From positions 1-43,865 of the forward strand of contig JALUYA010000038.1 in NCBI GenBank assembly GCA_027018875.1: a DNA stretch of 43,865 nucleotides, read 5' to 3'. The position numbers were made by a program, and so were the translations under genes. Numbering within the stretch: the first letter of the stretch is position 1; every line of letters starts with the position of its first letter. The DNA is from Gammaproteobacteria bacterium (GTDB lineage Bacteria; Pseudomonadota; Gammaproteobacteria; JAKDMP01). Positions 121 through 11,871 of the stretch are shown here, piece after piece. The notes beneath the pieces are model-generated. The model made no database searches. It was not told the DNA's origin and was given only the letters and a program-made list of their open reading frames with translations.

Positions 121-300
121 CTTAGATATATAGACGAGACCTTCTCGTAAGAATCCATTACTGTGAACATTTTGACTTCTGATTAGCGCGACATCCCCTT
201 GTGCTAGATAAACTTTACTTCCTCCTCTAGGTGTCGCACCACTCCCGACTTTTGAACAGGCATTTCCAAGCTTGACTGTAGACCACTTCCCCCCCATCCC

Positions 301-624
301 TTAATCCTCCGGTTTCTGCAAAACCACTCGCGCCTGATAGATCTGATCCTTAAACGATTCCGGCACTTCATCCCACAGGAACAGATCCACCCGAAAGGGT
401 AGGTCGCTTTCTTCAAAGGCTTCCCGAAGCTCGGCTACTGCATCTTCCTGTGCGGGATCCGCAAAGACCACCAGATCCAGATCCGACCAGGGTTTAGCCG
501 TGCCCTTGGTGCGGGAACCATAGGCCCAAACTTCTGTATCGGGCAGATAGCGCCTCAGCAGCCCATGAACTAGGGCGCGATCTCTCCCGCTGAGCTGCAA
601 GGTTTTGGCTATCTGGGCCTTCAT
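301..624 (-). CDS. MNT-type nucleotidyltransferase domain protein (antitoxin-like partner of HEPN)
   Basis: A 107-residue minimal nucleotidyltransferase. The signature GSRTKGTAKPWSDLDLVV carries the G-S motif and the metal-binding D-x-D (DLD) near residue 50. In this family the small NTase pairs with a HEPN protein; characterised pairs are toxin-antitoxin modules in which the MNT protein neutralises the HEPN RNase, often by AMPylation. The start overlaps the stop of the upstream HEPN gene by 4 bp (621-624, ATGA), the usual translational coupling. The third acidic residue is probably in RVDLFLWDE. Function is inferred from family and pairing. Confidence 0.85.
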   Translation of the reverse strand: MKAQIAKTLQLSGRDRALVHGLLRRYLPDTEVWAYGSRTKGTAKPWSDLDLVVFADPAQEDAVAELREAFEESDLPFRVDLFLWDEVPESFKDQIYQARVVLQKPED

Positions 625-1037
625 AATCCGGTGTGCCCCCTGAGCTGTTCGTACAGGGCGGTAGCATCTCGGATGAAATCTTCCATGCGTGCCAACGCTT
701 TCTGGGCCTTTTCGCCGCTGTAGTCGTGGGCGGTGTCAACCCGAAGGTTGGCGTACTCGATCCAGTCCTCCATGGAGCCGGGCAATAGGTGATTTTCGTA
801 GGCTAGGCGAAAGATGGGTTTGGGACTGTTGGGTACCTCGGGAACGCCCAATTCCTCCGAAAGATAGCGCTTTAACACTTTCCACAGGCAGTCATACAGG
901 GTTTCAAAGCGCTGAATTACCGACTCAGCTACTGCTTCTTGTAGCAAGTCGGGCAAGGCAGTATCCAAAGAGCGGTAATTCTCGAACTGTGCTTGCAGGT
1001 GGCGAAGCGCTTTTTCAAATTTGCTGTAGTCGATCAT
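621..1037 (-). CDS. HEPN-domain protein, HI0074-type nucleotidyltransferase partner (toxin-like)
   Basis: A 138-residue protein of the HI0074 group (nucleotidyltransferase substrate-binding, HEPN fold). It contains FETLYDCLWKVLKRYL in the middle and NLRVDTAHDYSG in the C-terminal half. The latter gives the R-x4-H motif (RVDTAH) that forms the RNase site in active HEPN toxins. It is translationally coupled to the MNT gene downstream. Its ATG (1037-1035) overlaps the TGA of a short remnant that reads like the C-terminus of HsdM ([11 protein letters not shown]), so the gene looks as if it was once coupled directly to an hsdM. Toxin activity is an inference from the motif and pairing. Confidence 0.85.
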   Translation of the reverse strand: MIDYSKFEKALRHLQAQFENYRSLDTALPDLLQEAVAESVIQRFETLYDCLWKVLKRYLSEELGVPEVPNSPKPIFRLAYENHLLPGSMEDWIEYANLRVDTAHDYSGEKAQKALARMEDFIRDATALYEQLRGHTGL

Positions 1038-1087
1038 AACTCTTTCCCAAATCTCAGCCCCTCCAGATTCTTCTTGATGGTGGTTTC
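1034..1087 (-). pseudogene. remnant of an hsdM 3' end
   Basis: Read on the reverse strand, these bases encode [17 protein letters not shown] and then a stop. The first 11 residues ([11 protein letters not shown]) equal the tail of the full hsdM at 1584-3206. Positions 1058-1087 are identical, base for base, to 1602-1631. The remnant has no start and no upstream part. It sits between the ygiT-like gene, whose stop codon lies inside it, and the HEPN gene, whose ATG overlaps its stop. It is best read as the other half of a duplicated insertion site. Confidence 0.75.
1058..1087. repeat. direct repeat, copy 1 (30 bp, hsdM tail)
   Basis: Thirty bases identical to 1602-1631 in the same orientation. 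The match continues imperfectly for a few bases beyond 1087. The two copies bracket the DUF4258/YgiT gene pair almost exactly, which is the arrangement left by insertion into, or recombination at, the hsdM 3' end. Confidence 0.9.
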
Positions 1088-1310
1088 AAGCCGCATAACG
1101 CAGCACTTCCAGCTCGGCGTTGCGTTCGAGGGCTTTTTCCGCCTGTTCATAGAGCCGCCGGGTGGTCTGTTCGTCGAGGTAGTATTCCCCGCATTGGGTG
1201 CATACCTGGGCGGGGACCTCCTTGACGAGCAGGACGGTCGAGCCGCGTTCCAGGGTGACAGTGACCTTGCCGGGCGCGGTTTCTCCGGTTTTGCAGATGA
1301 TGCATTTCAT
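1086..1310 (-). CDS. YgiT-type zinc-finger protein (antitoxin-like partner of DUF4258)
   Basis: A 74-residue protein beginning [10 protein letters not shown], with CxxC at residues 3-6 and a second CxxC in AQVCTQCGEYYLDE. This is the paired-cysteine zinc site of YgiT/MqsA-type N-terminal domains. The usual C-terminal DNA-binding domain of MqsA is absent, which is normal for the short YgiT-type proteins that accompany DUF4258 or MqsR-like proteins. The internal ATG at 1310 is chosen because it starts the zinc site and overlaps the DUF4258 stop by 4 bp (1307-1310). An antitoxin role is inferred from pairing. Confidence 0.8.
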   Translation of the reverse strand: MKCIICKTGETAPGKVTVTLERGSTVLLVKEVPAQVCTQCGEYYLDEQTTRRLYEQAEKALERNAELEVLRYAA

Positions 1311-1594
1311 GGTGATTTCCTCCGTTTGAATGTCCCGTCCCATTGTCCGGGGTCGGGGCGATAGACGGTCACGATCCAGCAGACGCGGCTTTCCTCGTCC
1401 CGCGCCAACACCAGATGGATCGGCTGCTCTTGCCAAAATCCGAGCAGCAGCCAGGCGGGATAGGGCTGCTCGTCGGGGTAGTGGTGGATGATCTCCCCCT
1501 CCCGCGCCACATGAAAGACGGCTTCTGGTGGTATACGGCGTTCGAACATGCGCTTGAAGGCATGTTTGGAGAGCTGGATGTCACTACAATCCAT
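1307..1594 (-). CDS. DUF4258 protein (toxin-like)
   Basis: A 95-residue protein with the DUF4258 pattern: an early [18 protein letters not shown] segment (H, R and E residues on a predicted helix), then [20 protein letters not shown], then a strand-rich end with [21 protein letters not shown]. The fold is related to RelE/BrnT-like small toxins, and genes of this family are commonly found next to YgiT-type zinc proteins, as here. Its ATG lies inside the 3' end of hsdM (11-bp overlap, 1584-1594), so it is probably translated from the hsdM transcript. Toxicity has not been shown and is inferred. Confidence 0.8.
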
Positions 1595-3206
1595 AACCCA
1601 ACCCCTCCAGATTCTTCTTGATGGTGGTTTCCAGCTCGCGGCTCTTGTCGAACTGCCCGTAGAGCTGTGCGGTCAGCTCCGCCATCTTCTCCTCGAAGGG
1701 CACGCCGTCGTCCTTCACGGCTTCGGCGCCCACATAGCGGCCCGGAGTGAGCACATAGCCATGCCCCTTGATGTCTTCCAGCGTCGCGGATTGCCACCAG
1801 CCGGGCTTGTCTTCGTATTCACCGCCTTCGCTGCGCCAGGCATGATAGACACCGGCGATGGTGTCGATCTCTTCCGGGGTCAGTTCCCGGTGCACCCGGT
1901 CCACCAGTCGGCCCATGCGGCGGGCGTCGATGAAAAGCGTCTCGCCGCTGCGGTCGCGGAGGGTTATCCCCTCACCCCCGGCCCCTCTCCCGGAGGGAGA
2001 GGGGGGAACTGGGTCGGCCCCGTTCCTGGAGGGAGAGGGGAGCTTACGGGCGTTCTTGTTGCGGGTGAGGAACCAGAGACAGACGGGGATCTGGGTGGTG
2101 TAGAAGAGCTGGCCCGGCAGGGCAATGATGCAGTCCACCAGGTCGTCCTCGATGATCCCCTTGCGGATGGCCCGCTCGGCGTTGGTGGCGGTGGACATGG
2201 AGCCGTTGGCCATGACGAAGCCGGCGATGCCGTTGGGGCCGAGGTGGTGGATGAAGTGCTGGATCCAGGCGTAGTTGGCGTTGCCCGCCGGCGGCACGCC
2301 GTATTTCCAGCGCACATCTTCTTTCAGGCGCTCGCCGCCCCAATCGGACATGTTGAAGGGCGGATTGGCGAGGATGGTGTCGGCCTTCAGATCCTTGTGC
2401 AGATCGTTGTGGAAGCTGTCGGCCTGGTGGGGGCCGAGGTCGGCGTCGATGCCGCGGATGGCCAGGTTCATCCGGGCCAGCTTCCAGGTGGTGGGGTTGG
2501 ACTCCTGCCCATAGATGGCGATGTCGCCCAGCCTGCCGCCGTGCTCCTCGACGAACTTTTCGCTTTGCACGAACATGCCGCCGGAACCGCAGCAGGGGTC
2601 GTACACGCGGCCCTTATAGGGCTCGATCATCTCCACCAGCAGTTGCACTACGCACTGGGGGGTGTAGAACTCGCCGCCGCCCTTGCCTTCGGCGGCGGCA
2701 AAGTGGCCGAGGAAATATTCGTAGACCCGGCCCAGCGGGTCCCTGACACCGGATTCCCTGGCCTTCAGGTCGATGTCGCCCACCAGCTTGACCAGCTCGC
2801 CAAGGCGGGTCTTGTCCAGGGTGGGCCGGGAGTAGTCCTTGAGTAGCACGCCCTTGAGGCTGGGGTTTTCCCGCTCGATGGCGGTCATGGCCTCGTCGAT
2901 CACCTTGCCGATGGTGGGCTGGGGCGCCTGGGCCTGGATCTGTTCCCAGCGGGCCTCGGGCGGCACCCAGAAGATGTTGTCGGCCAGATATTCGTCCCGG
3001 TCTTCGGGGTCGGTGTATTCCGTCTCCGCCGTGGCGGCCAGCTCGTCATACTTGTGCTGGAAGGCGTCGGAGATATATTTGAGAAAGATCAGCCCCAGCA
3101 CCACGTGTTTGTATTCCGAGGCGTCCATATGGCCGCGCAGCTTGTCGGCCATCTCCCACAGCTTGCTCTCGAAGCCGAGATTGGCGCCGTTATTGGTCTT
3201 GCTCAT
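1584..3206 (-). CDS. hsdM: type I restriction-modification N6-adenine methyltransferase subunit HsdM
   Basis: A 540-residue DNA adenine methyltransferase subunit. Visible features are the N-terminal helical domain ([14 protein letters not shown]...), AdoMet motif [11 protein letters not shown] near residue 203 and the catalytic NPPFN near residue 281. GGGAGGAAGG precedes the ATG. An extra stretch of about 28 residues (near 387-415, rich in P, S and G) interrupts the conserved NKNARK...[14 protein letters not shown] segment and is encoded by a GC-rich palindromic repeat; the frame stays open. No hsdS or hsdR lies in the window: downstream come two toxin-antitoxin-like pairs and an IS5 end. HsdM alone cannot choose a target, so it is either an orphan or works with subunits encoded elsewhere. 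Confidence 0.93.
1602..1631. repeat. direct repeat, copy 2 (30 bp, inside hsdM)
   Basis: This is the copy inside the intact hsdM reading frame, encoding [10 protein letters not shown]. It is identical to 1058-1087. The distance between copies is 544 bp, and deleting one repeat plus the spacer would join hsdM directly to the HEPN gene with an ATGA overlap. Confidence 0.9.
1964..2045. repeat. GC-rich palindromic repeat inserted in frame in hsdM
   Basis: The stretch contains CCCCTCTCCC followed by GGAGGGAGAGGGG (around 1983-2005) and a second, weaker GGAGGGAGAGGGG half near 2028-2040. This is the style of dispersed palindromic repeats known from many proteobacterial genomes. It translates on the hsdM strand as a low-complexity P/S/G/R insert with no place in the family alignment. 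The length keeps the reading frame, so the methyltransferase may still fold with an exposed loop. Confidence 0.7.
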
Positions 3207-3274
3207 TCCTTCCTCCCATCATGAACCTTAAGACTGAATCGTCTCCCCGGCACGATATGCAAATACCCCGAACA

Positions 3275-3466
3275 TCAGTCCTGGGATGCCGTGCTTTGTT
3301 GTTTTATCCAGTGGTCGATTTCCGTGTGCGAGAATCGCCAGGCTCCGCCGGCCTTGAACGCAGGAATCTTCCTTACTGCCGCCAGCCGATAGATCGTGCG
3401 TTTCCCAACCTTCAGATAGGCAGCTACTTCATCGAGGGTGAATATCTCACCGGCTTTGTCAGTCAT
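3275..3466 (-). CDS. excisionase/AlpA-like helix-turn-helix DNA-binding protein
   Basis: A 63-residue single-domain protein: EIFTLDEVAAYLKVGKRTIY, then RLAAVRKIPAFKAGGAWRFS and HTEIDHWIKQQ. This is the winged HTH of the excisionase (helix-turn-helix 17) family, common in mobile islands and next to restriction-modification genes. The start at 3466 is chosen because homologues begin a few residues before the EIFTLDEVA motif. It lies 68 bp upstream of hsdM on the same strand and is probably the first gene of the operon, where it could regulate hsdM or serve excision. No integrase is visible here. Confidence 0.8.
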   Translation of the reverse strand: MTDKAGEIFTLDEVAAYLKVGKRTIYRLAAVRKIPAFKAGGAWRFSHTEIDHWIKQQSTASQD

Positions 3467-3560
3467 TTCTCTCACTAGGGGTTTTCGCCTTATGAATATT
3501 GGCAATTTTGGTAAGGATACGTCAAAATCAGGCAGGATGGAATAATAATTGGGGAGCAAC

Positions 3561-3728
3561 ATGGCCGAAGAGGCGGGATCAAGGGAGATGATTGTCCCCG
3601 TGATGCTCCCTTTCTATCCCCGGGAGTCTGCCGGGTTTGCAGGTTGCATTGCCCTTCTGTCTGAGGAGGGTAAACTGCGCCCTTTGCGGTTCGTGATTTC
3701 GTCCGAGAAACAGCCGGTAAAACGATGA
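3561..3728 (+). CDS. possible small protein, 55 residues, unknown
   Basis: An ATG at 3561 preceded by GGGGAG at a good distance (5 bases) opens a 55-codon frame ending TGA at 3728. The product starts MAEEAGSREMIVPVMLPFYP and ends SSEKQPVKR; its composition is protein-like, with no transmembrane segment or known motif that I recognise. It is divergent from the excisionase-like gene and convergent with the BON lipoprotein operon. A modest hairpin with a T-run lies downstream (3858-3879). Otherwise the 3467-3909 stretch holds nothing I can identify. Coding status needs comparative support. Confidence 0.4.
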   Translation: MAEEAGSREMIVPVMLPFYPRESAGFAGCIALLSEEGKLRPLRFVISSEKQPVKR

Positions 3729-3857
3729 AATTGTTGTGACGGGCCGGGGAACCTTTTCTCTTGCGCCGCTCTTTCTGGTGCAGCTCCAGGGGGCGAGTTC
3801 TGATAGGATTTTCCCGCCGACCAGGGTAAGGAGGGGGCGCATGAGAAGTTACAGGTA

Positions 3858-3879
3858 GCCTTGCGGAAAGGCCGTTTTT
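3858..3879 (+). terminator. weak candidate terminator
   Basis: GCCTT-GCGGA-AAGGC hairpin at 3858-3872, followed by CG and five T (3875-3879). The stem is only 5 bp, so this is a weak candidate; it would end a transcript coming from the small frame at 3561. Confidence 0.3.
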
Positions 3880-3909
3880 CACGGACCCGGCGACAGGGTG
3901 GCAGTGTGC

Positions 3910-4269
3910 TTATCGGTCGCAAGAGTCATCTACGCCGGTCACCCCTTTCAAGGCACCGATTTTTCCGAAGGTGCGGGCTCGCAACTGGGGGGTGGGGAAG
4001 GGACCGCAAAAACTGATCTCGCCGTCGTGAACAAAAAATTTCAGCTTCAGCGGGGCCAGAACGGGATCGGATCCGAGGCGCTTGCGCACCGCAAGGGCAA
4101 GCCGGCGGTTCCGATCCGCTTGCGTTGCCTGATGGCGGGCATAATTGCCGGCCCATTCCGCGTGGGTGTCGTGATTGGGCGTGATTACGAAGACGCAGCC
4201 GCCCAAGGCTCCCAGGCCGAGCAGGGCCAGCGTGGCGGCCGCCAGGCCGATATGCGGCGGGTGTTTCAT
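3910..4269 (-). CDS. BON-domain lipoprotein
   Basis: A 119-residue protein with a lipoprotein signal: a hydrophobic stretch ending LGLGALGGC (lipobox LGGC, Cys about 25). The body contains alternating segments typical of a single BON domain: LALAVRKRLGSDPVLAPLKL, FFVHDGEISFCGPF, and KIGALKGVTGVDDSC. BON proteins bind phospholipids or envelope surfaces. The start overlaps the DUF4097 stop by 4 bp (4266-4269), so it is the last gene of the GntR-ABC operon and probably acts in the periplasm or outer-membrane inner leaflet with the DUF4097 protein. Confidence 0.72.
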   Translation of the reverse strand: MKHPPHIGLAAATLALLGLGALGGCVFVITPNHDTHAEWAGNYARHQATQADRNRRLALAVRKRLGSDPVLAPLKLKFFVHDGEISFCGPFPTPQLRARTFGKIGALKGVTGVDDSCDR

Positions 4270-5138
4270 GGTTCGATTCCCTTGGTGAGCGGACTTCCCA
4301 GGGACAAGATTACATTGCCGATTCCCGCCTGGAGCTTGTAAGCCGTCTTGGCGTCGCCACGGAGCTTCTGCGTGGCGGCGGTGATATTGCGTTTGTAGCC
4401 CTTGCGGATGCGTTTTCCGTCTACCTGTAGTTGAACGTTACCGATGCCGCTGGCAAGGTGGATGTTGCCATAGTCGGAGGCGGCGATGCGCACGCGGATC
4501 TGGCCCGTTCCGAGTTCGGCCGTTACCGGGCCACGCGGAAGCTCGGCCTTCAAGCGCCCTACGCCGAGCTTCACCTTGAGTCCCCCGTAGAGCCCCTGAA
4601 CCTGCACCTCCCCGACACCGCCGATCAGCGAAAAGGCCATCCGTGGTGGTAACCACAGGGTCCATTGGGCCGACCAGCCGGTCACATTGATATCGGTTTT
4701 GCTAATTGCGTTCGTTTCAATGGTGATGGTAGATCCACTCTCGGAGGTGGCCGGGGTGGCCGCGCTCGAGGAGTTGGGTGCCGGCAGTTGCATTGTCTGG
4801 TTCCGGGTGTTCAGTCCGATCACCAGCGTATGGCCTCCCCGCCGAGTCCGGATCGCAAGATCCCTTGGCGGACGCTTTCCAGGTCCCCCTATCCTCCAGT
4901 CGAAGATAAAGTGAAGCGTTTTACCGGAGTGAATTTTGGCCCTCAGGCGGATGGTATGGTCTGTGCTCGGGAGCACGCGTACCTTGCCCGTTGACAGCAG
5001 CAGCTTGATCTGGTCGATACCGCTGGCGGGTAGGGTTTTTGTGAGTGTCGGCAGGGTCCCGGGAGCGGGGGCGGGTGTCGCCGCCGCGGCCAAGGGAAAC
5101 AGGAGTACGAGGGTCAGATATAGTGGAGTGGTTTGCAT
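4266..5138 (-). CDS. secreted DUF4097-like adhesin-fold protein
   Basis: A 290-residue protein with a cleavable signal peptide (MQTTPLYLTLVLLFPLAAAA). A long region of short repeating strands follows: LSTGKVRVLPS, GGVGEVQVQGLYGGLKVKL, GVGRLKAELPRGPVTAELGTG, ASGIGNVQLQV and QAGIGNVILSLG. This is the right-handed beta-helix-like pattern of DUF4097/DUF2807 proteins. The ATG at 5138 is used because a signal peptide starts there and GAGGAGC precedes it. It lies 11 bp after the permease gene. DUF4097 proteins commonly sit in GntR/ABC or anti-sigma operons; the molecular role is unknown. Confidence 0.75.
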   Translation of the reverse strand: MQTTPLYLTLVLLFPLAAAATPAPAPGTLPTLTKTLPASGIDQIKLLLSTGKVRVLPSTDHTIRLRAKIHSGKTLHFIFDWRIGGPGKRPPRDLAIRTRRGGHTLVIGLNTRNQTMQLPAPNSSSAATPATSESGSTITIETNAISKTDINVTGWSAQWTLWLPPRMAFSLIGGVGEVQVQGLYGGLKVKLGVGRLKAELPRGPVTAELGTGQIRVRIAASDYGNIHLASGIGNVQLQVDGKRIRKGYKRNITAATQKLRGDAKTAYKLQAGIGNVILSLGSPLTKGIEP

Positions 5139-5149
5139 GGGAAAGCTCC

Positions 5150-6031
5150 TCAGCGGGTGGCGGTGTAACGCCGGGCGATGATGGCCAGGATGATCAGGAT
5201 AATTCCGATTCCAACGCCGATCCACATCGAAGGCAGGGTGAGAAACCGGGTGGTGCGATCGAAATTTGAACCGGCAAAGCCTAAAGCGTTGAGCTGGGTG
5301 GGACTCCAACTGAATGCGACCGGACCAATGGGCATGTTGGCGAGATGGCGGGCAAAGAAGGAAAACAGGTGACTGCTGCGCAACGCGATCAGCTCGATGA
5401 ACCCGGCGATAACGGGAGGCAGAACGGCCCAGAGAAAGGGCACCCGCGGCGCGGCCGCCGAGGCGAAGAGCAGCCAGCCGATGTAGGGCAACCACCACAG
5501 GAACTGGATCAGGATGGCGTAGGCAAACAGGCCCCAGGCGCCGAGCAGCGCCAGGGGAGAGAAGACGCTGAAGCCGGCGGCGCCGCGGGCGCCCGCGGCG
5601 AGGGCGAGCATGACGAGCACTAGAAGGCTGGTGGCCACGGTTACCAGCCAGACGAATGCCGGCCCGACCAGCCCCGCGGTGACAACCTTTCCGAGTACAT
5701 TGCGCGTGTCGGAAACGGGCAGCGAGCGCCAGAACAGGACGGAGCCGTTGCTCCGGTCGGAATACAGCGCCTGGATTAGGTAGATGGCCAGGGCGTAAGC
5801 GAAAATCCCGTAGATGAAGGATCCCATGGCGAGAATAAGCCTACCGACCTGGGCCGGATCCGCCCGGCCTGATGGTTGCACATTGATCCAGCCCGTGGCG
5901 AATCCTATGGCGAAAATCAACCCGGCCAGGGTGATCAGACCGAGCAGGAACAGTGGCAACCACACCAGGATGCCGCGGTATTCCCAGAACTCACGGCGGA
6001 TCTGCACGGTGAAGGGGCGAAGCATATTCAT
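5150..6031 (-). CDS. ABC transporter permease (ABC-2 type)
   Basis: A 293-residue integral membrane protein with about six hydrophobic segments, starting near ILVWLPLFLLGLITLAGLIF and ending near MWIGVGIGIILIILAIIA. It overlaps the ATPase gene by 4 bp (6028-6031) and forms the membrane half of the same exporter. An in-frame ATG two codons later (6025) is an alternative start. The substrate is not visible; relatives next to YtrA-type regulators are often linked to antibiotics, peptides or envelope stress. Confidence 0.85.
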   Translation of the reverse strand: MNMLRPFTVQIRREFWEYRGILVWLPLFLLGLITLAGLIFAIGFATGWINVQPSGRADPAQVGRLILAMGSFIYGIFAYALAIYLIQALYSDRSNGSVLFWRSLPVSDTRNVLGKVVTAGLVGPAFVWLVTVATSLLVLVMLALAAGARGAAGFSVFSPLALLGAWGLFAYAILIQFLWWLPYIGWLLFASAAAPRVPFLWAVLPPVIAGFIELIALRSSHLFSFFARHLANMPIGPVAFSWSPTQLNALGFAGSNFDRTTRFLTLPSMWIGVGIGIILIILAIIARRYTATR

Positions 6032-6888
6032 GAGTGGTCCTCCTGCTGCATTGTGGCTAGGAACAGGTCGGTCAGCCGGGGTTGCTGCACTTCGCCTAGG
6101 GCGGCGAGGCGCTCGCGGTCCCGGTTCGCGAACAGGAATACGTGCCGGCCGAGCAGCGTTTGTTCCTGTACCGGCTCGAGGGCGCGGGCCTCGGCGGCGC
6201 GATCGGCACCGACCAGCACGGTGGCATAGCGCTCGGCGAGTTCGTCCATCGTGGCGCGAAGCACGATCCGACCCCGGGCGATAAACGCCACGTCGGTGAG
6301 AATATGTTCGACCTCTTCCACCTGGTGGGTGGAGATGACGATGGTGCGGTCCCCGTCGAAGTAGTCATTAAGTAGATGAGTGTAGAAGGTCTTGCGAAAC
6401 AGGAGGTCGAGCCCCAGCGTAGGTTCGTCCAGGGTGAGCAGGCGGGCGTCGATGGCCAGGATCAGCGCCAGGTGGGTTTGTACGATCATGCCCTTGGAGA
6501 GCGTTTTTATCCGTCGCCGGGGGTCAATGCCGGCCTCACCGAGTAGGCGCTTGGCCTCGGCGCGGGAAAACCGGGGGTGGATGCCCGCGAGGTAATCGAA
6601 TAATTGTGATATCCGCGCCCAGCGGGGGAGGGTGGCGGTGTCGGCGATGAAGGCGCACTCGCGCATCAGGCGGGTGTGTTCACGCCAGGGGTCAAGGCCC
6701 AGTACCGACAGTTTGCCGGCGGCGCGGAGCAGCCCGGCCAGGGTTCTCAGCAGGGTGGTCTTGCCGGCACCGTTGGGGCCGATCAACCCGAGAATTCGAC
6801 CCGGGCCCACTTCGAGCGATAGCCCGTCCAGGGCACGTGTGTCGCGGTAGGTCTTGGTTAGGCTTGTAGCCTCGATTACGGTATTCAT
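6028..6888 (-). CDS. ABC transporter ATP-binding protein
   Basis: A 286-residue ATPase. Walker A GLIGPNGAGKTTLLRTLAGL is near residue 33, the signature LSKGM replaces the classical LSGGQ in the middle, Walker B is LLTLDEPTLGLD, and the switch histidine is in VISTHQVEEVEH. This is the BcrA/YtrB-like exporter class. Its ATG shares one base with the GntR stop (TGATG at 6886-6890), so regulator and exporter are co-translated. It drives the permease at 5150-6031. Confidence 0.92.
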   Translation of the reverse strand: MNTVIEATSLTKTYRDTRALDGLSLEVGPGRILGLIGPNGAGKTTLLRTLAGLLRAAGKLSVLGLDPWREHTRLMRECAFIADTATLPRWARISQLFDYLAGIHPRFSRAEAKRLLGEAGIDPRRRIKTLSKGMIVQTHLALILAIDARLLTLDEPTLGLDLLFRKTFYTHLLNDYFDGDRTIVISTHQVEEVEHILTDVAFIARGRIVLRATMDELAERYATVLVGADRAAEARALEPVQEQTLLGRHVFLFANRDRERLAALGEVQQPRLTDLFLATMQQEDHS

Positions 6889-7250
6889 CAGGACTTCCTC
6901 TTAAGGTGCTGCATGAGTTCGGCGGGATCCAGCCCCAGGCGCTGGATCTTTTTCACGATGCGGGGCCACTCCTCGTTGAGAAATTCCTCGCGCTTGCTGC
7001 GGGCGAGCTTGCGGCTGACTCCCGTGCGCACGAACATACCGAGCCCGCGCCGCTTTTCGACCAGGCCCTGGTCCACCAACAGTTGGTAGGCCTTGAGCAC
7101 GGTGAGCGGGTTGATCTGGTACTCGGCGGCCACCTGGCGTACCGACGGCAGCGCGTCGCCATCATTTAGGGTGTTATCGAGGATCATGGCCAGGATACGT
7201 TCCTTGAGTTGCAGATAGATCGGCTCGGTAGCGTTCCAGTCGGGGTTCAT
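6888..7250 (-). CDS. GntR-family transcriptional regulator, YtrA subfamily
   Basis: A 120-residue protein, the short length typical of YtrA-type GntR regulators. The N-terminal winged HTH shows EPIYLQLKERILAMI, ALPSVRQVAAEYQINPLTVL and GLVEKRRGLGMFV; a short helical dimerisation tail follows with no ligand-binding domain. It is the first gene of the ABC/DUF4097/BON operon. Members usually repress their own operon and are relieved by cell-envelope-active compounds. A 5-3-5 palindrome lies 57 bp upstream (7307-7319), and a related palindrome overlaps the promoter of the divergent-side neighbour (8024-8043). Confidence 0.9.
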   Translation of the reverse strand: MNPDWNATEPIYLQLKERILAMILDNTLNDGDALPSVRQVAAEYQINPLTVLKAYQLLVDQGLVEKRRGLGMFVRTGVSRKLARSKREEFLNEEWPRIVKKIQRLGLDPAELMQHLKRKS

Positions 7251-7306
7251 AGTCGTTCCTCATCTAGGGCGATCCGCCGGCATGCGGTATCTGCCGCGCT
7301 GTTGTA

Positions 7307-7319
7307 TGTTACTATAACA
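7307..7319. promoter_or_regulatory. candidate GntR operator upstream of its own operon
   Basis: TGTTA-CTA-TAACA, a perfect 5-bp inverted repeat with 3-bp spacer. On the operon strand it contains TATAGT, a plausible -10 element, so binding would block the promoter. No clear -35 is seen. The half-site matches that of the palindrome at 8024-8043. Confidence 0.6.
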
Positions 7320-7325
7320 CTATGA

Positions 7326-8006
7326 CTAAAAAAATGCATGCTTATTGCCCGGGTTGGGGAAAATGGTTGAGGATAAAGCCGGGCGCAAGCCATAAATCCC
7401 GCCTTGTTCTCTCGATTTTCCAGGGGGAGGTGAGATGAATCCGAGCGTTGGGCAAGGGCGTAACCCGGAGCGGCCTGGTTTGCCTTGCCGGTTGTTCAGC
7501 CACGGGGGTATAGCGGCGAGTTGTCGGCGGCGTTGCCCGGTGAGTTCGGTGGTCAGCGCAAGCCGGTAAGCGGCGAGATCCGTGCTCAAGGCCCGGGCGA
7601 TCGCGCTTTTTTTGAGGCGGGGGCGCTGTTGCGACACCAATCGATCCAGGCGGATTCGGGCCTTTTCCTGGTGACTGTCGGCCACCACGGGGAGGGCACC
7701 GGCTGGTTTCCGGCGGAATTGCCGGGCGAGTTCTTTGGTTACCGCAAGCCGGTAAACGGCGAGATCCGTGCTCAAGGCCCGGGCGATCGCGCTTTTTTTG
7801 AGGCGGGGGCGCTGTTGCGACACCAATCGATCCAGGCGGATTCGGGCCTTTTCCCGGTGACTGTCGGCCACCACGGGGAGGGCACCGGTAGGCTGCCGGC
7901 GGTGTTGTCCGGCGGGTCCGGCGAGCATCGTTGAAGTGGAGAGCAGGGGAGCGGCTGAAGTTGCATTCAGGGCGAGGATAAGAGGCAGTAGGAGGGGAAT
8001 AGGCAT
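7326..8006 (-). CDS. secreted tandem-repeat protein, unknown family
   Basis: A 226-residue protein with a predicted signal peptide (MPIPLLLPLILALNATSAAP). Two 62-residue repeats follow, each with ALPVVADSH-(R/Q)-EKARIRL, DRLVSQQRPRLKKSAIARAL and STDLA-YRLA-T-EL; they look basic and helical. The last 65 residues are low-complexity with no recognisable fold and may be poorly constrained. I do not recognise the repeat family. The strand is chosen because it has a signal peptide, a strong promoter (TTGACT-16-TATACT) and a palindromic operator over the -10; an opposing frame also reads through the repeats but has none of these. Confidence 0.65.
   Translation of the reverse strand: MPIPLLLPLILALNATSAAPLLSTSTMLAGPAGQHRRQPTGALPVVADSHREKARIRLDRLVSQQRPRLKKSAIARALSTDLAVYRLAVTKELARQFRRKPAGALPVVADSHQEKARIRLDRLVSQQRPRLKKSAIARALSTDLAAYRLALTTELTGQRRRQLAAIPPWLNNRQGKPGRSGLRPCPTLGFISPPPGKSREQGGIYGLRPALSSTIFPNPGNKHAFF
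7561..7746. repeat. tandem repeat unit 1 (186 bp)
   Basis: The first of two direct 186-bp units inside the secreted protein gene. Over its first 142 bases it differs from the next unit at only two positions that I can see, so the duplication is recent or kept uniform. Confidence 0.85.
7747..7932. repeat. tandem repeat unit 2 (186 bp)
   Basis: The second unit, encoding the N-terminal protein repeat on the reverse strand. Its last 44 bases diverge from unit 1, which marks the edge of the recent duplication. Confidence 0.85.
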
Positions 8007-8023
8007 GACAGTCTCGGTAATGG

Positions 8024-8062
8024 TGTTATAGATAAGTATAACAGCAAATATTAGAAAGTCAA
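8024..8062 (-). promoter_or_regulatory. promoter and operator of the tandem-repeat protein gene
   Basis: On the reverse strand TTGACT (8062-8057) and TATACT (8040-8035) are separated by 16 bp, a near-consensus sigma-70 promoter. A perfect inverted repeat TGTTATA-6-TATAACA occupies 8024-8043 and covers the -10. It carries the same TGTTA/TAACA half-sites as the operator in front of the GntR operon, though with a longer spacer. Repression by the neighbouring GntR protein is the simplest reading. Confidence 0.65.
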
Positions 8063-8303: not shown

Positions 8304-9284
8304 ATGACTCAGCCCATACGTATTGCAATCACCGGTGCCGCCGGTAACATCGGCTATGCGCTGGCTTTTCGGATCGCCGCCGGTGATCTGCTCGGTTCCC
8401 AACAACCGGTAATATTGCACCTTATCGAAATTCCCCCGGCGGCAAACGCCTTGGAAGGCGTGGTAATGGAATTATCCGACTGTGCCTTCCCGCTGGTGCG
8501 TAATATCGTGCCGAGTACGACCCCGGAAGAAGGGTTCCGTGATATCGATATAGGGTTTCTGGTCGGCGCCAAGCCGCGTGGCCCGGATATGGAGCGCAAG
8601 GATCTGCTCCAGGATAACGCGCGGATATTTTCCGTTCAGGGCAAGGCGCTCAATGCCGTCGCCAAGCGTGATGTCCGGGTGTTGGTGGTAGGCAATCCGG
8701 CCAATACCAATGCGCTGATCGCCAGCTCCAATGCCCCCGATCTCGATCCCGGCTGTTTCAGTTCCATGATGCGCCTGGATCATAACCGGGCGCTGGCCCA
8801 GCTGGCGGCCAAGCTCGATGTCCATGTCACCGATCTGCGCCAGATGATTGTGTGGGGGAATCATTCCGCTACACAATTCCCGGATATTGCCCAGGTATTG
8901 CTCCGGGGGCGGTCGGCGCGCGAAGCCGTATCCTGGGATTGGTACCGGGATCAATTCATCCCCACTATCCAGCAGCGTGGAGCCGCAATCATCAAGGCTC
9001 GTGGTGCCTCATCGGCAGCCTCGGCGGCCTCGGCGGCAATCGATGCAGTTCGCGACTGGGTTCGCGGAACACCCGCGGATGACTGGGTTAGCATGGCGGT
9101 TCCCGCCGACGGAAGTTATGGCATCGAACCGGGAATTTTCTATGGCTACCCGGTGAAATGTCGGGGGGGCAAGGTTTCGATTGTGCCTGGTCTGAGCTGT
9201 GATGATTTCGCCCGGGAGCGGATGCGGGCCAGCGAAAGGGAGTTGCGTGAAGAGCGTACCGCGATAGAGCAATTGCTTGGCTGA
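8304..9284 (+). CDS. mdh: malate dehydrogenase
   Basis: A 326-residue NAD-dependent malate dehydrogenase that interconverts malate and oxaloacetate in the TCA cycle. The Rossmann loop reads [17 protein letters not shown], the substrate arginine loops include [15 protein letters not shown], then [20 protein letters not shown] and the catalytic histidine in [12 protein letters not shown]. This is the cytosolic-type (type 2) family found in many proteobacteria and differs from the E. coli form. AAGGAGTGG lies just before the ATG. It stands alone in transcription direction, followed by a separate promoter for the next gene. Confidence 0.96.
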
Positions 9285-9384: not shown

Positions 9385-11871
9385 ATGAATGCAGTTTTTG
9401 CCCTATTTTTATTGTTCGGACAATTGTTGGCGGGATTGTTGGGAGCGTTGTTCGCGGGCGTTAAGCGTGGCCTGTATCTCTTGTTGGGGGCTGTTTTCGG
9501 CGCACTGGGATACGCGGTGGGCTGGCTTTGGCGTGGCCTGGCGTTATCGGCCCGGGTCGCGGGGCTTGTGGTAGTTCGCCGGCGGTTGATTTCTGCGCCA
9601 TTGCTGTCCCAGTTCCGCCGGGTATTGCCGCCGATGTCCGATACCGAGCGTGCGGCACTCGAATCCGGTGGTGTGTGGTGGGAACGGGATCTGTTTTCGG
9701 GGATTCCCGACTGGGGAAAACTGCATGCGATGCCCCCGGCAACCCTGAGCAAAGAGGAAAAGGCCTTTATTGACGGGCCGTGCGAGACACTCTGCAATCG
9801 CCTGGATGAGTGGAAGATTACCCACGAATGGGCGGATTTGCCCCCGGATGTTTGGCAGACTTTGCGCCAGGAAGGGTTTTTCGCGATGATCATCCCCAAG
9901 CGCTATGGCGGCCTTGAGTTTTCCAATTACGGGCACGCCCAGGTTTTGTTGAAAATTGCCAGCCGCAGTCCAACCGCAGCGGCGACCGTGGCGGTGCCGA
10001 ATTCGCTGGGGCCGGCCGAGCTGATTCTGCATTATGGAACCGACGCGCAGCGGGAGTACTATTTGCCCCGGTTGGCCGATGGTCGCGAAGTACCCTGCTT
10101 TGCCCTGACCTCGCCCAGCGCCGGTTCCGATGCCACCTCGATCCGCGATACCGGGGTGATCTGTATGGGCCATTGGGAGGGCCGTGAGGTCATCGGCATC
10201 CGCCTCAATTGGGATAAGCGCTATATCACCCTGGCGCCGGTGGCAACCCTGCTCGGACTAGCCTTCAAGCTTTATGATCCCGAACACCTGGTCGGCGATC
10301 GGGACGAATATGGGATCACCTGCGCCTTGATTCCGACCAACCTTCCCGGTATTACAATTGGGCGGCGACATCTGCCGCTCAACGTACCTTTCCAGAATGG
10401 CCCGACCCAAGGCAAGGATGTGTTCGTGCCGCTGGATGCCATTATCGGTGGAATCAAGATGGCGGGTCATGGCTGGCGGATGCTGGTGGAAAACCTGTCG
10501 GTGGGCCGCTCGATTTCTCTACCGACCAATGCCACCGGGGGAGCCATGCGAACTCTCCATGCGGCCGGGGTTTATGCGCGGATCCGCAAGCAATTCCGGG
10601 TGCCCATCGCCGAGTTCGAGGGAATCCAGGAGCCGCTCGCGCGGATGGCGGCCGACGTGTATACCATGGAGGCCACGCGGCGGATGACGCTGGCCGCCCT
10701 GGACCAGGGCGAGCGTCCGGCGGTAGCCGCGGCGATCGTGAAGTACCACGTGACCGAGTTCGGCCGCCGGGTGGCCAACGATGGCATGGATATTCATGGT
10801 GGCAAAGGCATTATTTTGGGGCCGAGTAACTACCTGGCCCGCAACTGGCAGGCGGTGCCGATTGCCATCACCGTCGAGGGGGCCAATATTCTTACCCGCT
10901 CGCTGATGATCTTCGGCCAGGGTGCGATTCGCGCCCACCCCTTCATCTGGGAAGAAATGAAGGCGGCGGAGGCCAATGATTTGCCGGCCTTCGACCGGGC
11001 ATTTTTCGGTCATGTCGGCTTGTTGCTGCGCAATGCGGCCCGGGCCGGTCTGGCGGCACTCAGCGACGGGCGGCTCGGCACCCGGGTGCCTGCCGATAGT
11101 GCCTTGACCCTCCGCTATCGCCGGTTATCCCGTTATAGTTCGACCTTCGCGCTCCTGGGTGATATGAGCATGCTTTCTTTGGGTGGTGCACTTAAGCGCA
11201 GAGAACGTTTGTCGGCCCGTCTTGGTGACCTGCTGAGTTGCCTGTACATGGGTTCGGCGGTTCTCAAGCGGTATGCCGAAGAGGGCGAATGTGCGGAGGA
11301 TCTGGCGCTGGTGGAATATGCCTTGGATGATTTGGAACGCCGTTTGGATACAGGGATTGATGAAATTTTGGCGAACCTGCCGAATCGGCTGCTGGCCCGT
11401 CTGCTACGGGCGTTGGTGCTGCCCTATGGCAAACGCAATACTCCCGCCAGCGATGCCCTGGGGAATCGTGTGGCGGCGGCGGTTACTCACCCGAGCGCGA
11501 CTCGCAACCGCCTGGTTGCCGGGATTCACCGCGGTACTCCGGATGGCTTGACGATGCGGATGAATGAGGCGTTGGAGCTTGCTATCTGGGCCGAACCGCT
11601 TGAGCGGCGGATTGGCGAGGCGGTCAAGTCGGGTAGGATCGGTTCGGTGCCCGGTGCCGGGGAGGCCGAACTGCTTACGCCGGCGATTGCCGCCGGGGTG
11701 ATTTCCGCGGCCGAGGGCCAGCGCTTGACGCACTACTATTCTTTAGTGCGACAGTTTGTGGCCGTCGATGACTTCACCACCGAAGAGATTGCGGTCAACT
11801 CACCCGCCGCAAACGAAACCCAGCGGGTGGCGGCTTGGCGTGAAGCGCGGCGACGGGTGCATGCGGCCTGA
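9385..11871 (+). CDS. fadE: acyl-CoA dehydrogenase, FadE type
   Basis: An 828-residue FadE-like acyl-CoA dehydrogenase for the first step of fatty-acid beta-oxidation. The N-terminus has two hydrophobic segments (FALFLLFGQLLAGLLGALFAG and a second near residues 30-50), which suggest membrane attachment. The FAD-dependent core follows, with CFALTSPSAGSDATSIRDTG, MDIHGGKGIILGPSNYLARN and AITVEGANILTRSLMIFGQG. The C-terminal 250 residues correspond to the DUF1974 region that marks the FadE subfamily. The start at 9385 is used because TAGAGGTG lies 7 bases upstream. No other beta-oxidation gene is in the window. Confidence 0.93.
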   Translation: MNAVFALFLLFGQLLAGLLGALFAGVKRGLYLLLGAVFGALGYAVGWLWRGLALSARVAGLVVVRRRLISAPLLSQFRRVLPPMSDTERAALESGGVWWERDLFSGIPDWGKLHAMPPATLSKEEKAFIDGPCETLCNRLDEWKITHEWADLPPDVWQTLRQEGFFAMIIPKRYGGLEFSNYGHAQVLLKIASRSPTAAATVAVPNSLGPAELILHYGTDAQREYYLPRLADGREVPCFALTSPSAGSDATSIRDTGVICMGHWEGREVIGIRLNWDKRYITLAPVATLLGLAFKLYDPEHLVGDRDEYGITCALIPTNLPGITIGRRHLPLNVPFQNGPTQGKDVFVPLDAIIGGIKMAGHGWRMLVENLSVGRSISLPTNATGGAMRTLHAAGVYARIRKQFRVPIAEFEGIQEPLARMAADVYTMEATRRMTLAALDQGERPAVAAAIVKYHVTEFGRRVANDGMDIHGGKGIILGPSNYLARNWQAVPIAITVEGANILTRSLMIFGQGAIRAHPFIWEEMKAAEANDLPAFDRAFFGHVGLLLRNAARAGLAALSDGRLGTRVPADSALTLRYRRLSRYSSTFALLGDMSMLSLGGALKRRERLSARLGDLLSCLYMGSAVLKRYAEEGECAEDLALVEYALDDLERRLDTGIDEILANLPNRLLARLLRALVLPYGKRNTPASDALGNRVAAAVTHPSATRNRLVAGIHRGTPDGLTMRMNEALELAIWAEPLERRIGEAVKSGRIGSVPGAGEAELLTPAIAAGVISAAEGQRLTHYYSLVRQFVAVDDFTTEEIAVNSPAANETQRVAAWREARRRVHAA

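Follow-up and report, generated by a model that had tools for sequence, protein, structure and literature searches.

A shared operator predicts joint control of a secreted tandem-repeat protein and a gntR-ABC exporter operon in a gammaproteobacterium

The DNA analysed here, hereafter the window, is the whole 43,865-nucleotide contig JALUYA010000038.1 of a gammaproteobacterial genome assembly. Its minus strand carries six genes, transcribed in the order 226-amino-acid open reading frame (ORF), gntR, ABC ATPase, permease, DUF4097-like gene and BON-like gene, and mdh runs in the opposite direction from position 8304. The gntR gene (6888..7250) encodes a 120-amino-acid YtrA-type repressor, and its stop is overlapped by the start of the ATPase gene (6028..6888; Pfam ABC_tran, E 1.2e-19), which links the regulator to the ABC transporter genes. 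A probable ABC-2-type permease follows (5150..6031), for which ABC2_membrane_5 scores below threshold (E 0.023) and which has a syntenic counterpart in G001, the only other genome of the window's family in our set and a member of another genus. The last two genes encode a secreted DUF4097-like protein (4266..5138) and a small BON-like protein with a lipobox-like ALGGC (3910..4269). This gene order is the one given by an earlier reading of the sequence alone, whereas two of the names in that reading are weakly supported, since neither window protein passes Pfam. The protein at 4266-5138 has no Pfam match to DUF4097 (PF13349) and owes its name to similarity with its G001 orthologue, which does pass (25.7 versus 22.9 bits); the protein at 3910-4269 fails the BON cutoff (PF04972, 12 bits versus 27, E = 0.27).

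The regulator itself exhibits the traits of the YtrA subfamily, including a winged helix-turn-helix, a length of about 120 residues with a short C-terminal helical part, ABC linkage, and a long palindromic operator (about 24 bp) whose half-sites lie far apart. Its N-terminus is the GntR winged helix-turn-helix according to Pfam (GntR PF00392, 53.2 bits versus a cutoff of 27), and the protein aligns nearly end to end with the small GntR structures 3tqn (5-113) and 3neu (1-116). Its N-terminal part aligns with the solved structures 2du9 and 6sbs, and 2ek5 is another solved relative. The closest namesakes in NCBIfam belong to the PmtR system, with the window GntR failing the PmtR cutoff (NF047563, 47.9 bits versus 200) and the PmtA score of 108 bits also lying far below its cutoff. 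The genome encodes only one GntR protein of this YtrA type.

Beside the operon, at 204-3562, lies a mobile-island-like stretch. It comprises an MNT-like nucleotidyltransferase and HEPN-like pair (301-624, 621-1037), a YgiT/MqsA-like ORF (1086-1436) with a small partner (1307-1594), a type I restriction methylase HsdM-like gene (1584-3206), and an HTH_17 protein (3275-3562; Pfam E 3.9e-16). All of these names except HTH_17 come from reading the translations.

The first gene of the series (7326..8006) encodes a protein of 226 residues with a signal-peptide-like start and a syntenic homologue in G001. The ORF is present as the sequence-only reading had drawn it, with a 186-bp direct repeat of 62 codons in two copies (copy 1, 7700..7885; copy 2, 7514..7699) that are 92% identical to each other. 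Helix is predicted for most of the protein. Searches of Pfam and NCBIfam returned nothing above cutoff and no match to a toxin or bacteriocin family, and AlphaFold run with two sequences gave mostly helices with a mean pLDDT of 56, which is too poor for a fold search. Among 274 genomes of the class, homologues were confined to the sister genus and two weak matches (best E 8.4e-5, in a 505-amino-acid frame).

Upstream of this gene is a sigma-70-type promoter on the minus strand (8035..8062; TTGACT, 16 nt, TATACT) that agrees with the consensus at 10 of 12 bases. Its -10 hexamer TATACT sits inside a palindrome (8024..8043; TGTTATACTTATCTATAACA on the minus strand), which we call operator 2. The sequence-only reading had proposed both this promoter, with its -10 under an operator, and the palindrome TGTTATA-6-TATAACA, and each is found where it was placed. 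A second site, operator 1 (7300..7319; TGTTGTATGTTACTATAACA, or TGTTATAGTAACATACAACA on the minus strand), precedes gntR and has the -10-like hexamer TATAGT inside it; the -35 of the gntR promoter is poor. Here the same reading had reported a palindrome TGTTA-CTA-TAACA, which does exist, but its register of 7307-7319 was wrong and the full site extends from 7300 to 7319. Once operator 1 is read from 7300, the two sites have the same 7-6-7 layout, TGTTGTA-TGTTAC-TATAACA and TGTTATA-GATAAG-TATAACA, and share the 20-bp form TGTTRTA-N6-TAYAACA. The view that the spacers differ is thereby rejected, and the equal spacing makes the case for one regulator stronger. Between the repeat ORF and gntR no terminator was detected on the minus strand, and thus transcription could possibly read through from the former into the latter.

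Exact matches to TGTTRTA-N6-TAYAACA occur in the window only at 7300-7319 and 8024-8043, and allowing up to two mismatches adds no others. Shuffled versions of the window (n = 100) held 0.09 sites on average, and none of the 100 held two. Genome-wide (2.2 Mb), three sites are observed, compared to about 0.003 expected from the dinucleotide content of the window. This rarity, the shuffles, and the co-occurrence of operator and GntR described below led us to reject a chance origin. The related proposal, that two unrelated or accidental palindromes are bound by different regulators, draws on the 5-3-5 reading of 7307-7319 only and faces the common 7-6-7 layout, the conservation of both sites in the sister genus, their rarity and their association with GntR; we consider it extremely improbable. 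As the sequence-only reading had also suggested, one YtrA-type repressor very probably controls both the gntR-ABC operon and the repeat gene, a prediction well supported by the shared operator sequence and geometry, the sister-genus conservation and the single GntR of this kind in the genome.

In G001, the order of gntR, repeat-type first gene and mdh is the same as in the window, and both operators are kept. The promoter of the first gene, whose product we call the leader, retains its -35, its -10 and the operator, and the bases between them have changed. Identities to the window proteins are 69% for GntR, 64% for the ATPase, 47% for the permease, 38% over 287 residues for the DUF4097-like protein, 48% over 75 residues for the BON-like protein, and 31% for the leader, which is the fastest-changing gene of the comparison. 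The two leaders are nonetheless recognizably related (phmmer E 3.9e-14 and 3.3e-7 in the two directions), with conservation of the frame, the signal peptide and a helical motif around LDR(L/M)V ... PRL ... ARAL. The G001 BON-like gene (L033, approximately 5090-5400, minus strand) diverges after about 70 residues and ends early in a frameshift-like manner.

Whether selection still acts on the repeat ORF is uncertain, and in this genome the ORF may be degrading or freely evolving. One explanation would be that it has ceased to function as a protein gene: operator 2 would then be the ancestral operator of the operon, the 186-bp duplication and a 3' end that runs on would have brought about the decay of the leader, and gntR-ABC alone would be served by operator 1. 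The differences between the repeat copies, which are spread 5/5/4 over the codon positions and give nine non-synonymous changes and one synonymous change among 10 changed codons, show no sign of purifying selection since the duplication and fit such decay, although 10 codons are too few to reject constraint. Codon periodicity is absent from the last 58 codons, and an antisense ORF of 149 amino acids is equally open opposite the gene; yet the first three-quarters of the ORF are periodic, and the start, signal peptide, promoter and operator are all kept in the sister genus along with the protein similarity. On balance, we judge decay to be unlikely, with a functional leader the preferred reading.

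To place the locus among its relatives, we used 80 loci from a scan of named genomes with GntR alignment, which cover Gammaproteobacteria (including xanthomonads and Massilia) and metagenome-assembled genomes (MAGs) labelled Acidobacteria or Verrucomicrobia. In 78 of the 80, the operator precedes gntR with at most two mismatches to its form. A consensus over 74 loci, RGTGTTATAGTTNACTAYAACACY, is a palindrome of about 24 bp with the frame RGTG-N16-CACY, and the -10 position reads TATAGT, TATACT or TGTAGT in all but one of them. Its outer bases, GGTG-N16-CACC, fit the motif given for Xanthomonas citri YtrA (PMC6746942); operators 1 and 2 agree with six and seven, respectively, of the eight defined bases.

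Furthermore, operator and regulator tend to occur together. Among 185 genomes of the class, 12 encode the GntR and eight contain the strict operator: both are present in seven, GntR only in five, the operator only in one, and neither in 172 (Fisher p = 4.7e-9, a value that overstates independence because the genomes are related). Five of the 12 GntR-bearing genomes yielded no strict operator, and two of these five have looser sites. In a genome that does not encode this GntR, a perfect palindrome, TGTTATACAAAAGTATAACA, stands before a MazEF-like toxin-antitoxin pair (L042, G008:C50:4718-4737) and is probably that pair's own operator.

The relatives also clarify the position of the repeat gene. 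The operator lies within 150 bp of gntR in 14 of the 78 loci and across a longer gap in the other 64, where one ORF fills a median of 82% of the gap. An ORF with a strongly hydrophobic N-terminus is found in this gap on the sense strand in 63 of 64 cases versus eight on the antisense strand. The order operator, leader, gntR, ABC is present in 63 of the 78 relatives, whose operons include a gene for a small secreted or membrane protein. In most of them a single operator precedes leader, gntR and ABC genes, and as a result the repeat protein is best viewed as a lineage-specific first gene. The simplest reading of these arrangements is that the repeat protein fills, in the window's family, a first-gene slot of long standing, and that the operator directly before gntR is the more recent one; among the loci compared, only this family shows an operator on each side of the leader.

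All-against-all comparison divides the leaders into at least 15 groups that share no detectable sequence similarity, and the repeat protein matches only its G001 counterpart. Xanthomonad leaders have 80-110 residues and end near MPYYSFA, those of Woeseiaceae have 54-87, and those of Acidobacteria about 190. A 104-residue secreted-type protein between operator and gntR in one genome (L034, G006:C55, approximately 9400-9790 of the contig) has no detectable relative in the set. Many otherwise unrelated leaders (L029-type; for example L055, L059, L094, L101 and L116) end in a hydrophobic-aromatic stretch, such as ..LGLLLFRRG, ..MPYFSFA or ..LVFERAGG, which possibly reflects a shared C-terminal function. 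The sequence-only reading had called for a genome search for gntR operons beside similar repeat proteins; such a neighbor turned up in the sister genus, and the other loci carry unrelated proteins in its place. More tentatively, the leader slot of YtrA-type gntR-ABC operons in Gammaproteobacteria and Acidobacteria-labelled MAGs might hold one secreted protein that is replaced, lineage by lineage, by unrelated families and whose repression is shared with the exporter and, in some genomes, also with an RND pump. Such a pairing of a constant regulator and a changing secreted partner would then constitute a general module for envelope defence or inter-bacterial interaction, and the tandem-repeat protein would be one of its forms.

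Could the leader itself be the agent that the co-regulated ABC exporter handles, as an antimicrobial, signalling or inducing molecule? This is how phenol-soluble modulins relate to PmtR-PmtABCD of Staphylococcus aureus (PMC5080381), the closest NCBIfam namesake, albeit with scores far below cutoffs, and the window repeat protein is very basic (charge +28), with leaders that change rapidly and are unrelated between lineages. Against this, the Sec-type N-termini of leaders would make an ABC exporter unnecessary, and no toxin or bacteriocin family was matched. Charge is likewise not a common property of the leaders (median -2), and we discarded a cationic antimicrobial nature as a trait common to them. 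We regard this alternative as improbable, somewhat more so than decay of the ORF, and an antimicrobial or protective role for the repeat protein as speculation, given that the leaders have in common neither charge nor detectable sequence and that its two repeat copies bear no mark of purifying selection after their duplication.

The control proposed by the sequence-only reading extends past the locus to which it had been confined, with its shared character upheld. The third genomic operator, on contig C3 (L133, G000:C3:11000-20000; gene 2669-4918), stands 16 nt upstream of the start of a 749-residue secreted-type protein for which DUF5916 is sub-threshold (19.3 versus 22.6 bits), and it agrees with the repeat-gene operator at 18 of 20 bases. 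We rejected the idea that the two promoters are nearly identical: the upstream 25 bp agree at only 13 positions of 25, which 201 of the 87,680 window positions also attain, and so only the operator counts as shared. Additional operators in other genomes precede RND-type membrane-fusion genes in G001, G018, G167 and G181 (L135, L136, L138, L142), a TolC-like gene in G018 (L137), and a serine carboxypeptidase gene in G001. The carboxypeptidase passes Pfam, and the RND, membrane-fusion and TolC names come from reading translations. As judged from sequence, these targets fit a regulon of exporter and envelope genes.

Taken together, we estimate a probability of about 0.8 that the YtrA-type GntR encoded at 6888-7250 represses the leader, itself, the ABC exporter, the envelope genes and the C3 gene through the shared operator, and that the leader is a lineage-specific envelope accessory. 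From the operators, promoter layout, synteny, co-occurrence and hydrophobic N-termini, all of which were computed directly, we infer binding, repression, inducer and leader function as follows. A GntR dimer would bind TGTTRTA-N6-TAYAACA over the -10 hexamer in both promoters and, because the operator contains this hexamer, the bound repressor would block RNA polymerase. The inducing signal is probably either an envelope-active compound or a disturbance of envelope synthesis; it would take GntR off the DNA, and the leader, the repressor, the ABC exporter, the two envelope proteins and the C3 secreted-protein gene would then be turned on together. The leader would most likely function within the envelope, assisting either the exporter or the stress response.

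These observations define the operator of a widespread small repressor at the sequence level, which allows the regulon to be traced in any genome. One position in an exporter operon is held by many unrelated secreted proteins, an uncharacterised set under one predicted control that could be induced and tested together, and the operator before RND efflux genes in several genomes links the repressor to drug efflux.

The sequence-only reading knew of no described system with this combination, a claim that was too strong: operons that join a YtrA-type GntR to ABC genes and begin with the gene for a small membrane protein are already known (Bacillus subtilis ytrG), and the operator fits the X. citri YtrA motif. 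In B. subtilis, the ytrGABCDEF operon likewise carries, along with a small GntR repressor and ABC genes, the gene for a further small membrane protein, YtrG; the repressor, YtrA, has a second target operon, ywoBCD, and induction is by lipid II cycle inhibitors (PMC12772383). In contrast to the window, YtrG is a transmembrane protein, not a repeat protein, DUF4097 and BON genes are not described in that operon, and the inverted repeats are 13 bp apart (PMC4730234). S. aureus PmtR is also a YtrA-type GntR that represses the operon in which it is encoded together with an ABC exporter, and it is released by peptides that its exporter removes (PMC5080381); it differs in having a 36-bp site, no described leader gene, phenol-soluble modulins as exported substrates, and a response limited to the pmt genes. 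The YtrA protein of Sulfolobus acidocaldarius uses one and the same site over the transcription start to repress both its own operon and a further membrane-protein gene (PMC6746942), yet has a 14-bp core operator, a shorter C-terminal helix and an archaeal promoter.

The likeness extends to the xanthomonads. The relatives compared (Pseudoxanthomonas, Luteimonas, Dyella and Thermomonas) share 60-67% identity and the same operator upstream of gntR, with leaders of 80-110 residues that, unlike these shared parts, have no detectable similarity to the repeat protein. The GGTG-N16-CACC frame of X. citri YtrA fits the consensus of the relatives. HpaR1 of Xanthomonas campestris represses its own gene and, unlike the regulator proposed here, is also a global activator (PMC4730234); by this analogy, it is not certain that the window GntR acts by repression only, without activation. 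A description of the diversified secreted first gene was not found among the open papers that were searched. Compared with these systems, the regulator and operator are of a known kind, and the diversified secreted first gene is the new part.
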